A DNA stretch of 64,000 bases from Gammaproteobacteria bacterium (GTDB lineage: Bacteria > Pseudomonadota > Gammaproteobacteria > Steroidobacterales > Woeseiaceae). The stretch is from contig JAOTUU010000001.1 in the NCBI GenBank assembly GCA_029863705.1, positions 1 through 64,000 of the forward strand, read 5' to 3'. The translations under genes and the position numbers were made by a program. Shown here in pieces: positions 19,978 through 55,495 of this stretch. Position 1 is the stretch's first letter. Each line of letters starts with the position of its first letter. The notes under the pieces are model-generated. The model was not told the origin of the DNA. It was given only the letters and a program-made list of their open reading frames with translations, and ran no database searches.

Positions 19978-20937
19978 ATGTTTTCGAAAAAAGAAAAGAC
20001 CGCTGAGTCGCAGAGTTTTATTAAACGTCTGCGGGCGCGGCTGAATCGCGGCGATAGCTGGCTCACCTACGACCTTGCCAACCTGGCACCGGGCGGTGAA
20101 ATTGATGAAGAGGTTCTCGAGGAACTGGAGTCTTTGCTCGTTATGGCCGACGTCGGCGTCGATACGACCGAGCAGATTATTGGTGAATTGCAAAAAAGTC
20201 TCGCACGCAAAGAACTCAAAGATGTCGATGCGCTCCGCAAGGGCTTGCATCGGTCACTGCTTGGAATTCTCGAACCCGTCTCGTTGCCGCTGGAGATAAC
20301 TGCGCAAGACGGCCCGTTTGTCATCCTGATGGTGGGCGTTAATGGCGCGGGCAAAACCACGACCATTGGCAAACTGGCGAATCGATTCAAGGATCAGGGC
20401 CTGTCAGTTATGCTTGCTGCCGGCGACACGTTCCGCGCTGCAGCCGTCGAACAGCTGCAGGCCTGGGGCGAACGAAACGACGTGCCAGTCGTTTCCCAGC
20501 AGGCCGGAGCTGATCCCGCAGCGGTTGTATTCGATGCGTGGGATGCCGCGCGTGCCAGGAATATTGACGTCCTGCTTGCTGACACTGCGGGTCGTCTACA
20601 AAACCAGCAAGGCCTTATGGACGAACTCGAGAAGATCAAACGCATCATTGGCCGCCGTGACAACACAGCGCCGCATGAGGTCATGCTCGTTCTCGACGCC
20701 AGCCAGGGCCAGAACGCATTAGTACAGGCGCAGAAATTCCATGAGGTATTGGGCTTGACTGGCATCACAGTGACAAAGTTGGACGGCAGCGCAAAGGGTG
20801 GCATTCTGCTTGCGATCGCTAACCAGCTTAAGGTCCCGCTTCGGTTCATCGGCATCGGGGAATCGCTCGAGGACATGCAGCCTTTTTCCGCCGAAGAGTT
20901 TGTTAGCGCATTACTGAATAGCAGCAGCTCGACATGA
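19978..20937 (+). CDS. ftsY: Signal recognition particle receptor FtsY
   Basis: MVGVNGAGKTTTIGKLA, DTAGRLQNQQGLMDELEKI, TKLDGSAKGG. Confidence 0.95.
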   Translation: MFSKKEKTAESQSFIKRLRARLNRGDSWLTYDLANLAPGGEIDEEVLEELESLLVMADVGVDTTEQIIGELQKSLARKELKDVDALRKGLHRSLLGILEPVSLPLEITAQDGPFVILMVGVNGAGKTTTIGKLANRFKDQGLSVMLAAGDTFRAAAVEQLQAWGERNDVPVVSQQAGADPAAVVFDAWDAARARNIDVLLADTAGRLQNQQGLMDELEKIKRIIGRRDNTAPHEVMLVLDASQGQNALVQAQKFHEVLGLTGITVTKLDGSAKGGILLAIANQLKVPLRFIGIGESLEDMQPFSAEEFVSALLNSSSST

Positions 20938-21611
20938 TTCGAATTGAAAATGTGACCAAGCGATATCCGGGAGGGCAGGAAGCCTTGTCGGGGCTTAACC
21001 TCGCGGTCGACAAAGGCGAAATGCTTTTTATAACCGGGCACTCCGGTGCGGGCAAAAGTACGTTGTTACGTCTCATTGCCCTCATCGAGAGGCCGAGCAG
21101 TGGCCAGGTGATCGTTGACGGCCAAAACACACGACGTGTAAAACGCCGCAAGATTCCGGCTTACCGTCGGCAAATCGGCATGGTCTTCCAGGACCACAAA
21201 CTTCTGTACGACCGACCTGTCGCAGACAACGTTGCGCTACCGCTGGTGATTGCCGGGGTCAGCCATCGTGATGCCGGCCGCCGCGTGCGCGCGGCACTCG
21301 ACCAGGTCGGACTGTTGCATAAGGAGCGCCGGACCCCGGAGACGCTGTCTGCTGGCGAACAGCAGCGGGTCGGCATCGCAAGGGCGATCGTCACACGGCC
21401 AAAGCTGCTCATCGCAGATGAACCGACGGGCAACCTCGACCCCGATTTGTCTTTGGAGGTTATGCGTATCTTTCGCCGCTTTAACGAGGTCGGTGTGACG
21501 TTGCTGATCGCAAGCCACGACATTTCGTTAATAGACCGGATGGGTTGTCGGCGCATCGCACTCGATGAAGGCAGGCTCGTTCCCGAGGAAGAGGAAGAGT
21601 CATGGCAGTAA
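20934..21611 (+). CDS. ftsE: Cell division ATP-binding protein FtsE
   Basis: GHSGAGKSTLLRLIA, LSAGEQQRVGIARAIV; between ftsY and ftsX. Confidence 0.95.
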   Translation: MIRIENVTKRYPGGQEALSGLNLAVDKGEMLFITGHSGAGKSTLLRLIALIERPSSGQVIVDGQNTRRVKRRKIPAYRRQIGMVFQDHKLLYDRPVADNVALPLVIAGVSHRDAGRRVRAALDQVGLLHKERRTPETLSAGEQQRVGIARAIVTRPKLLIADEPTGNLDPDLSLEVMRIFRRFNEVGVTLLIASHDISLIDRMGCRRIALDEGRLVPEEEEESWQ

Positions 21612-22567
21612 CTCGTCATTCGGACGCCGTCGCACCAGTCCATTCTTCGGGAGCCATTGCTACCTGGCTTACTCGCCACGTCAGCACGTCAATCGGTTCG
21701 TTGGGACGCCTGTTTCGACAACCATTTGCCAGCCTGATGATTGTCCTGGTTATCGCCGTCACGCTCGCTATTCCGGCGTCGTTAAACCTCGTTGTCAAGA
21801 ACGCACAATTTGTGAGCTCCGGTTGGGATAACGCGCTCGACTTTTCTATGTACCTGCAGAAGGATCTGAGTGAAAGCGACGCGAGTGAGCTTGCAAAACT
21901 CATTCAGCAACGTGCCGACGTTGCGTCGGTTCATCTTGTCACCGCGAGCGACGCCCTGGCAGAGTTCAAGGTGCAGTCCGGTTTCGGTGAAGCGCTTGAC
22001 CACCTTGCCGAGAACCCGCTGCCGCATACGCTCGTAGTCCGGCCGAGCTCGGCCAATACCAGCGAGTCGATGATCCTCCTGCAGGAAGAGCTTGGAAATC
22101 TGCCAGAAGCCGATCTCGTGCAGGTCGATACGGAGTGGGTACAGCGCTTTCACGCGATACTCGACATCATCAAGCAGGCGATTGTTATCGGCGCATCACT
22201 GCTCGGCGCGGCGATCATTGTCATTATCGGCAATACGATTCGACTCGACATTCAGAATCGGCGCGAGGAAATCGAGGTCACCAAGTTGATTGGTGCCAGC
22301 AACGCCTTTGTGCGCCGACCGTTCCTCTGGTCCGGGTTCTGGTACGGCCTTTTCGGCGGCCTTCTGGCCCTCGGGCTCGTCCAGTACGGCCTGTTCTTGC
22401 TCGAACAGCCGGCCGCGCGGCTCGCAGGACTGTACCAGAGTGGCGTCTCGATCCTTTCCCTGGATCTCCGGGAAAGCCTGTCAATATTGGCTGTTGGCGT
22501 CCTGCTTGGCTTGATCGGCTCGTGGTTCGCAGCGGCACGCCATATGAGGCGCATTGAACCTCGCTAG
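21602..22567 (+). CDS. ftsX: Cell division protein FtsX
   Basis: Permease with 4 TM; IQNRREEIEVTKLIGASNAFVRRPFLWSG. Confidence 0.94.
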   Translation: MAVTRHSDAVAPVHSSGAIATWLTRHVSTSIGSLGRLFRQPFASLMIVLVIAVTLAIPASLNLVVKNAQFVSSGWDNALDFSMYLQKDLSESDASELAKLIQQRADVASVHLVTASDALAEFKVQSGFGEALDHLAENPLPHTLVVRPSSANTSESMILLQEELGNLPEADLVQVDTEWVQRFHAILDIIKQAIVIGASLLGAAIIVIIGNTIRLDIQNRREEIEVTKLIGASNAFVRRPFLWSGFWYGLFGGLLALGLVQYGLFLLEQPAARLAGLYQSGVSILSLDLRESLSILAVGVLLGLIGSWFAAARHMRRIEPR

Positions 22568-22661
22568 GCCGATTAGACATAATCCGCTGCTCCGAGTAGC
22601 TCCTAAGATACGGATTTAACTATACAAATAGCTAAAACGTATGGGGAACCAATCACAGTTG

Positions 22662-22688
22662 TTAGCACTCTAACCCGCCGAGTGCTAA
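22662..22688. promoter_or_regulatory. CIRCE element (predicted HrcA operator)
   Basis: TTAGCACTC-taacccgcc-GAGTGCTAA, perfect 9/9 arms and 9-bp spacer, 27 nt upstream of rpoH ATG. Confidence 0.92.
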
Positions 22689-22715
22689 AATGAGCGCCCG
22701 AAACGGAGGTTCTGA

Positions 22716-23579
22716 ATGACTACAGCAGTTGCTACGACTAACCACGACCTGATTCTGGCTGGGCCAGTTGGCAGTCTGGATGCCTATATCCAGGCCGTTG
22801 GTGCTATCCCTGTGCTAAGCAAGGAAGACGAGCAAGCGCTCGCCAACAGATTCCGGGACAGCGAAGACCTCACAGCCGCTAGAGACCTGGTCATGGCACA
22901 TCTGCGCTTCGTTGTTCACATCGCCAAGGGCTATACCGGCTACGGTCTGCCATTGGCTGACCTCATCCAGGAAGGCAACGTTGGGCTCATGAAGGCTGTG
23001 AAGCGATTCGACCCTGAGTATGACGTACGGCTTGTGTCGTTCGCCGTGCATTGGATACGTGCCGAGATTCACGAATTCGTGCTCAAGAACTGGCGCATCG
23101 TCAAAGTTGCGACGACCAAGGCGCAGCGCAAACTGTTTTTCAACCTGCGCAAGTCCAAGAAGACCTTGGCGTGGTTGTCACATGCAGAGACCCAGGCCGT
23201 TGCGAAAGACCTTGGAGTGACGCCGAAAGAAGTTACTGAAATGGAGCGGCGCCTGAGCGCACGCGATGCCATTTTTGATCCGGGCCCGGATGCCGACGAC
23301 GACCATTCATTTACGCCGGCAGCCTATTTACCCAGCCCTGATGCCGACCCGGCCATACAGGTTGAGAAAACCGATTTTCACGACGATGCAACGTCAAGGA
23401 TGGCAGAGGCTATTACGACGCTGGATGATCGCAGCCGCCATATCCTCGAAAGCCGCTGGCTAACCGAGGACAAACTAACGCTGCATGAACTCGCTGCTGA
23501 GTACGAAGTGTCTGCTGAGCGCATTCGTCAGATCGAAGTGAACGCTATCAAGAAGCTCCGCACTGCGATGGCAGTGTAG
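22716..23579 (+). CDS. rpoH: RNA polymerase sigma-32 factor
   Basis: PLADLIQEGNVGLMKAVKRFDPEYDVRLVSFAVHWIRAEIHEFVLKNWRIVKVATTKAQRKLFFNLRK (RpoH box). Confidence 0.97.
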   Translation: MTTAVATTNHDLILAGPVGSLDAYIQAVGAIPVLSKEDEQALANRFRDSEDLTAARDLVMAHLRFVVHIAKGYTGYGLPLADLIQEGNVGLMKAVKRFDPEYDVRLVSFAVHWIRAEIHEFVLKNWRIVKVATTKAQRKLFFNLRKSKKTLAWLSHAETQAVAKDLGVTPKEVTEMERRLSARDAIFDPGPDADDDHSFTPAAYLPSPDADPAIQVEKTDFHDDATSRMAEAITTLDDRSRHILESRWLTEDKLTLHELAAEYEVSAERIRQIEVNAIKKLRTAMAV

Positions 23580-54291: not shown

Positions 54292-54511
54292 CTTCTTTCT
54301 CCATCGATTCTTCGCCATCCGGCACGGGATCGACCCGCTCTTCATTTTCCGTTGTCACCGGCGCATCGAACATCAACCAGTCTTCGTCCGACTCTTCCCA
54401 CAATCCCAAATACTCCAAAAAATCCTCGTCCGGCATCTCGTCGTCTGCGCCCTGCACCAAACCACCAAATAGCAGCAGCGCGCCCAGTAGAACAGGCTTG
54501 CTAGCCGACAT
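54281..54511 (-). CDS. Small acidic protein with predicted signal peptide
   Basis: MSASKPVLLGALLLFGGLVQGADDEMPDEDFLEYLGLWEESDEDWLMF; overlaps both neighbours by about 11 nt. Confidence 0.65.
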   Translation of the reverse strand: MSASKPVLLGALLLFGGLVQGADDEMPDEDFLEYLGLWEESDEDWLMFDAPVTTENEERVDPVPDGEESMEKEDES

Positions 54512-54890
54512 TACCGTTTACTTCCAGGTCGGATGCTTCAAGCCAATAGTAGAATTCGAGTTCTTCCAGCATGTCGAGGCTATCTTCCTCGAGCAGCATT
54601 TCAAAATCCGAGGCCGTGACCGGACCTTCAATCGCATCGACGCCGTCAGGCCCGCGCATCACCATGACCGCAAGCAGTGCAGCGGCCGCAATGCCTGTCG
54701 CTGGCACCCAGCGCAACCATGGGCTGGCCGAGCTCGCGCGTTGCAGTTCAGCAAGCGCCCGGTGTCTTCCCTGGTTCAAACGCGACAACGTTGCCGCGTC
54801 GAGGCTGTCAACGCTGTCATCGAAAAGCGCTTTTGCTTTTTCGACGATCTGATCGTTGTCTTTTTGTTTAGTGTCCATTGGCTCGTTCAT
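54501..54890 (-). CDS. DUF3619-like single-TM protein, possible anti-sigma role
   Basis: KALFDDSVDSLDAATLSRLNQGRHRALAE then one TM; ATGA overlap with sigma gene. Confidence 0.7.
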   Translation of the reverse strand: MNEPMDTKQKDNDQIVEKAKALFDDSVDSLDAATLSRLNQGRHRALAELQRASSASPWLRWVPATGIAAAALLAVMVMRGPDGVDAIEGPVTASDFEMLLEEDSLDMLEELEFYYWLEASDLEVNGNVG

Positions 54891-55495
54891 TGCCAGTGCT
54901 CTCCTAACGCATCCCGCAGCGAATGAATCGCGCGGGAATAATGCGTCTTAACGCTGCCGTCGCTGCAACCCATTGCGGTCGCTGTTGCGGCAACATCGAG
55001 ACCTTGAAATGTACGCAACATGAAGGCTTCGCGCTGCCTGTTTGGCAAATTCTGTACGGCAAGTTCCAATTGTTGCATCGCCTCACTCGTCTGCAGCTGT
55101 TCGTCCGGTGTCCGCCCCGCGGGATCCGGCGCATTGGCGGTAATGTCGTAGTCGTCGTCGCCAGTTTTTGCGCGTCCAAACCACACCATAACGCGGTTGC
55201 GAACTTTCTGGCGACGGTGCCAATCACGAATGCCATTTTGCAGGATCCTGAAGAAAAGCGGCGCCCACTCAGTACTTGGCCGGGTCGCATAATTTCTTGC
55301 CAACTTGATCATCGCTTCCTGGACAAGGTCGAGCGCATCGTCGCGATCACGAACAGCTATCTCAGCCATGCGCAACGCCCGCCGCTCTACCTCGGCCAGG
55401 AACTGATTGAGTTGCCGTTCTGCTTGCAGCGTCTTTGTCCCCGTCGAATGCTCGCGAGAGCAAGATACCGCAAAAACACCTGCGTGCGCGGTCAT
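54887..55495 (-). CDS. ECF-type RNA polymerase sigma factor
   Basis: DALDLVQEAMIKLARNY...LPNRQREAFMLRTFQGLDVAATATAMGCSDGSVKTHYSRAIHSLRDAL. Confidence 0.9.
   Translation of the reverse strand: MTAHAGVFAVSCSREHSTGTKTLQAERQLNQFLAEVERRALRMAEIAVRDRDDALDLVQEAMIKLARNYATRPSTEWAPLFFRILQNGIRDWHRRQKVRNRVMVWFGRAKTGDDDYDITANAPDPAGRTPDEQLQTSEAMQQLELAVQNLPNRQREAFMLRTFQGLDVAATATAMGCSDGSVKTHYSRAIHSLRDALGEHWQ

Follow-up and report, generated by a model that had tools for sequence, protein, structure and literature searches.

The window, that is, the whole 64-kb stretch of DNA that was analysed, encodes ftsE, ftsX and rpoH in succession on the forward strand (Table 1). The ftsX-rpoH order matches that of Escherichia coli. 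The rpoH product was assigned with TIGR02392, for which the RpoH cut-off is 323 bits. By RpoH, the closest named relatives are metagenome genomes of Woeseiaceae, which makes membership of the source organism in Woeseiales very probable. Between ftsX and rpoH lies TTAGCACTC-TAACCCGCC-GAGTGCTAA, a CIRCE operator without a mismatch in a scan of the window and the predicted binding site of the repressor HrcA. The original prediction placed a mismatch-free TTAGCACTC-N9-GAGTGCTAA 27 nt before the rpoH ATG; the coordinates and the mismatch scan agree, with 27 nt between the end of CIRCE and the ATG at 22716. Candidate promoter elements lie just upstream of the operator, within it and across its right end.

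Table 1. Features of the ftsE-ftsX-rpoH region, in window coordinates
Feature	Position	Strand	Basis
ftsE	20934..21611	+	TIGR02673
ftsX, gene preceding rpoH	21602..22567	+	TIGR00439
Predicted sigma-E -35, GGAACCA (5/7 to GGAACTT), 17 nt before the -10	22645..22651	+	Conserved in rpoH sites
CIRCE operator, perfect, predicted HrcA site	22662..22688	.	0 mismatches; kept in relatives
Weak sigma-70 -35-like TTAGCA (4/6), within left arm	22662..22667	+	Promoter scan
Predicted sigma-E -10, TCTAA, last 2 bases of left arm and first 3 of spacer	22669..22673	+	
Candidate extended -10, TGC-TAAAAT, right arm and AAT	22683..22691	+	Promoter scan; final T in homologues
Shine-Dalgarno GGAGG	22705..22709	+	Sequence
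rpoH, heat-shock sigma factor sigma-32, 287 aa	22716..23579	+	TIGR02392, 401 bits

CIRCE and hrcA in the genome and its order

The rpoH site is the sole CIRCE match at ≤3 mismatches in the 64 kb, and shuffled sequences give 0.01. In the whole assembly (3.68 Mb, 94% complete), two CIRCE were found at ≤3 mismatches, both perfect. The second, found on looking for other CIRCE sites as the original prediction had proposed, sits before groES and thus on groESL. HrcA is encoded in one copy (TIGR00331, 327.9 bits; cut-off 197.2), with the Pfam DNA-binding and C-terminal domains both present, and its sequence resembles that of the Thermotoga HrcA of known structure (1stz). Its gene is the first of hrcA-grpE-dnaK-dnaJ, and the hrcA contig holds no CIRCE even at ≤5 mismatches. 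Because just two CIRCE occur in the assembly, the predicted HrcA regulon consists of rpoH and groESL. The window's genome differs in this from one family of the order, in which hrcA has a one-mismatch CIRCE immediately upstream (L003:1105-1131 / L248, G018:C107) and so appears to be autoregulated.

A search of 60 genomes of the order, counting the window's own, recovered RpoH in 57, and 59 rpoH loci were examined. These loci were found by RpoH alone. A perfect CIRCE is located just upstream in 55 of the 59 and a one-mismatch CIRCE in 2; the two loci without CIRCE are that of genome G047 and a second, divergent RpoH of G021. The latter, in a same-genus relative (L064, G021:C25), has 53% identity and no CIRCE ahead of it. 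In most of these genomes the CIRCE count is exactly two, and almost all of them have the rpoH and groESL pair. Of 37 further CIRCE sites fetched from these genomes, 34 are before groES. The remaining three are L265, of rpoH type and close to the end of its contig, L248, the site before hrcA, and L279, which has two mismatches and no groES. The presence of hrcA and the conservation of the repeat upstream of rpoH in relatives are the reverse of two of the findings, no hrcA and no repeat in close relatives, that the original prediction had named as speaking against it. That the palindrome arose by chance has a negligible probability, given the shuffle expectation for 64 kb and its conservation at the level of both order and class.

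Genome G047 has no CIRCE anywhere and no detectable hrcA. Its rpoH upstream region keeps the extended -10 TGGTAAAAT without the palindrome. In this natural case, repressor and operator have gone together. Three other genomes, G015, G048 and G054 (listed as ≥92% complete), carry CIRCE on rpoH and groESL with no hrcA detected. They represent either an assembly gap or a repressor lost with its operators retained. Three order genomes of lower completeness likewise keep CIRCE sites with hrcA not detected. Some of these six assemblies are fragmented. The absence of CIRCE where hrcA is absent thus holds for G047, and elsewhere is a statistical tendency with exceptions, many of them in incomplete assemblies.

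The palindrome could be a conserved promoter core, or the relic of an earlier CIRCE, to which HrcA no longer binds. Parts of both arms also serve as promoter elements, and this by itself would be enough to conserve some positions; some genomes keep the palindrome where hrcA was not detected. However, 55 of 59 loci retain every one of the 18 arm positions, among them positions without a promoter role, while most of the spacer is free, and G047 shows the -10 retained with the palindrome gone. A site that HrcA has abandoned is very improbable, and an operator still bound by HrcA is the reading carried forward here.

Candidate promoter elements fused to the operator

The region around the operator was profiled over 195 non-redundant rpoH CIRCE sites. 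CIRCE is palindromic, and the strand was set by the rpoH match. The arm letters are fixed by site selection, and conservation was judged outside the arms. GGAACT(T) at 16 to 10 nt before CIRCE matches at ≥5/7 in 150 of the 195 sites, compared to 2-10 of 195 at control positions displaced 10-70 nt upstream. Spacer bases 1-3 are T, A and A in 65, 63 and 73% of sites and, together with the TC of the left arm, give TCTAA. The spacing from this -35 to the TCTAA is 16 nt in 106 sites, 17 in 35 and 15 in 9; the window has 17, and the modal spacer is 16. The sigma-E-like -10 is associated with the presence of the -35 (Fisher OR 7.0, p 7e-8, kinship ignored). The spacer interior varies freely. After the right arm, A, A and T are found at 66, 85 and 97% of sites and complete TGCTAAAAT, whose last T is found in 189 of 195.

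The -35 (≥5/7) was found in 32/33 sites of the genus, 16/21 of the rest of the order, 82/113 named GTDB matches and 20/28 of the class sample. Among named betaproteobacteria the sigma-E signal is present in 31/43. A good sigma-E -35 is missing in 45/195 rpoH sites, among them several Pseudoalteromonas, Rheinheimera and Polynucleobacter, so the sigma-E part is not universal.

As a control, 47 groESL CIRCE sites of the same order and class were used (pattern-found sites and sites of relatives). The -35 reaches ≥5/7 in 1/47 of these (p 9e-23 against the rpoH sites, kinship ignored), the T at position 29 is found in 3/47 (p 5e-38 against the rpoH sites, kinship ignored), and AA at spacer positions 2-3 in 1/47. 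Since groESL CIRCE sites nearly lack all three, the promoter elements are statistically real, specific to rpoH and not by-products of CIRCE. The groESL sites are instead preceded by CTTGAAA-N13-CCCTAT, with the CTTGA core in nearly all 47. This is close to the sigma-32 consensus of PMC545781. In the window's genome, a perfect sigma-32 -35, CTTGAAA, is directly ahead of the groESL CIRCE (L002:1461-1500).

We read GGAACTT with TCTAA as a putative sigma-E promoter, and the right arm with AAT as a candidate extended -10. In the window, TGCTAAAAT matches the extended -10 consensus TGnTAnnnT. A promoter scan independently returned TTAGCA-N18-TAAAAT, the second hexamer at 22686-22691 and a TG ahead at 22683; the letters of the TTAGCA hexamer are dictated by CIRCE itself. 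Predicted starts are at ~22680 (sigma-E) and ~22698 (housekeeping). The original prediction had seen the overlap of the right arm with the extended -10 (TGCTAAAAT at 22683-22691), which stands, and had missed the sigma-E -10 within the site.

Upstream of E. coli rpoH is GAACTT-N16-TCTGA, which we take to be the sigma-E-dependent P3 promoter. No CIRCE was found upstream of E. coli rpoH (best match 8 mismatches), and no hrcA was found in E. coli, which was in the control set of the hrcA search. P3 and the window's promoter share the gene, the ftsX-rpoH location and the type of -35/-10, but here the sigma-E -10 is inside a predicted HrcA operator. A rpoHP3-lacZ fusion serves as a sigma-E reporter (PMC2215328).

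The sigma-E pattern matches at one further place in the 64-kb window. The genome has 17 RpoE/ECF family matches, 1 of them above the RpoE cut-off, and rpoE adjoins rseA (G000:C362). An alternative is that HrcA represses rpoH but GGAACTT and TCTAA form another conserved element, for example a promoter read by some other ECF sigma factor, and only the extended -10 matters. The 16 further ECF matches and the 45 sites without a good -35 would fit this, while the match in motif and spacing to P3 of the same gene and the true rpoE-rseA pair argue for sigma-E. We regard another element as unlikely and retain the sigma-E assignment as the predicted one. Elsewhere in the window, an ECF sigma factor ORF (54887-55495, reverse strand) has a weak TIGR02939 match of 40 bits. 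It is followed by a short ORF (54501-54890, reverse strand) that includes a hydrophobic stretch and is its possible anti-sigma factor.

Proposed circuit and known systems

Most likely, HrcA would gate both the housekeeping and the envelope-stress transcription of rpoH. In unstressed cells, HrcA on CIRCE would block housekeeping polymerase at the right-arm extended -10. It would also block sigma-E polymerase, which has its -35 upstream and its -10 in the left arm and spacer. Both would be blocked because HrcA would cover the two -10 elements together. HrcA activity depends on GroEL in Bacillus. Unfolded protein would pull GroEL off HrcA, HrcA would leave CIRCE and rpoH would be transcribed, and heat or folding stress may thus free rpoH and groESL at once. 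New sigma-32 would then transcribe groESL, which has its own predicted sigma-32 promoter and its own CIRCE. With CIRCE on both rpoH and groESL, HrcA would repress regulator and target, a coherent feed-forward loop, and renewed GroEL would restore repression in a negative feedback loop. As a whole, this arrangement, a predicted operator over the rpoH start signals that blocks two polymerases and on release leads through sigma-32 to groESL and back through GroEL, is one we consider quite probable from the sequence evidence. Three lines of evidence strongly support the hierarchical heat-shock circuit under HrcA that was first proposed for the locus: conservation of the site, its tendency to occur together with hrcA, and the way in which operator and promoters overlap.

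If the circuit is as proposed, many related bacteria have an extra gate on rpoH transcription, with HrcA as its sensor of chaperone capacity. Cytoplasmic heat stress, by HrcA release, and envelope stress, by sigma-E, would have to pass the gate together.

In E. coli, heat control of rpoH is by mRNA structure and sigma-32 turnover. The same could hold here, with CIRCE setting only the basal level of rpoH. The E. coli precedent favors this, and both layers could coexist. Against it, the predicted rpoH leader is just ~18 nt in the window and 16-21 nt in 33 same-genus rpoH loci, taking the start 7 nt past the -10. Predicted accessibility of the Shine-Dalgarno-AUG region hardly changes, from 0.45 to 0.50, between 20 and 45°C, with no significant difference from synonymous shuffles (p 0.21). 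No thermometer signal was detected in the rpoH leader plus 240 nt, with which a coding-region thermometer is still compatible, and Rfam gave no match. Heat control mainly by an RNA thermometer and protein turnover is unlikely, and transcriptional gating by HrcA remains the favored account.

CIRCE and HrcA are established for groESL and hrcA-grpE-dnaK. The 27-bp operator is the same here, the HrcA is a true one and groESL is a standard target, but the additional target is an alternative sigma factor gene. The rpoH CIRCE contains promoter elements, whereas the groESL CIRCE lies just after a sigma-32 promoter. Unlike in hrcA operons with CIRCE, hrcA in the window's genome is without one. HrcA is likewise part of a layered heat-shock circuit in the HrcA/HspR cascades of epsilonproteobacteria (Helicobacter, Campylobacter), where the second layer is the repressor HspR; here it would be a sigma factor.

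Breadth and evolution

The layout was searched in 369 Gammaproteobacteria genomes, evenly drawn from the class in the GTDB sense, which includes betaproteobacteria. A strict pattern was used, consisting of a perfect CIRCE, a start codon and an RpoH motif. It matches 90/369 sampled genomes in ~58 family-level groups (hand count). In calibration, the pattern recovers 47 of the 59 known rpoH loci, so 90/369 is a lower bound. This breadth, across gamma- and betaproteobacteria, had been left unstated in the original prediction. HrcA is encoded by 83 of the 90 CIRCE-rpoH genomes and 268/369 overall (hand-counted), a co-occurrence with Fisher OR 6.0 and p 2e-7 (shared ancestry ignored). The 7 CIRCE-rpoH genomes of the class sample without detected hrcA are mostly, not all, incomplete or fragmented. 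Named GTDB matches include Alcanivorax, Pseudoalteromonas, Dyella, Methylocaldum, Nitrosomonas, Thioalkalivibrio, Aromatoleum, Polynucleobacter and Woeseiaceae.

Gammaproteobacterial rpoH transcription is usually described from E. coli. With the CIRCE-rpoH layout in many gamma- and betaproteobacteria, the E. coli picture looks like an exception. Read most simply, E. coli and the present layout would share the sigma-E promoter, and the HrcA operator would have been lost in the E. coli lineage. More broadly, we lean towards a single 27-bp operator, combining HrcA site, housekeeping core and sigma-E -10, as an old and widely kept rpoH switch in gamma- and betaproteobacteria. E. coli would have retained the sigma-E promoter while losing HrcA and the operator, making the textbook circuit the derived one. 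If true, this would explain simply how heat-shock control by a repressor and by a sigma factor came to be combined and how one of the two later disappeared.

A literature search found no description of CIRCE on rpoH in gamma- or betaproteobacteria, an earlier notice being possible, and no report of a sigma-E promoter overlapping CIRCE. Permina and Gelfand (2003) reportedly covers gamma- and betaproteobacterial groups, and part of CIRCE-rpoH in these groups may already be known. CIRCE on rpoH itself was previously predicted: in 2004, a perfect CIRCE upstream of rpoH in the deltaproteobacterium Geobacter sulfurreducens, at -51, was listed as a predicted HrcA target (PMC545781, Table 8). That species also has a groESL CIRCE, and no rpoH CIRCE is reported for the other species of that paper. 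No sigma-E promoter is described for the Geobacter site, whereas the layout here is class-wide.

Two records labelled Desulfuromonadaceae and Thermodesulfobacteriota (L135, L171) have CIRCE before rpoH and no convincing sigma-E -35. A metagenome-assembled genome titled Klebsiella pneumoniae (L160) also carries CIRCE-rpoH; its RpoH is 68% identical to that of the window, and it is probably mislabelled or a mixed bin.
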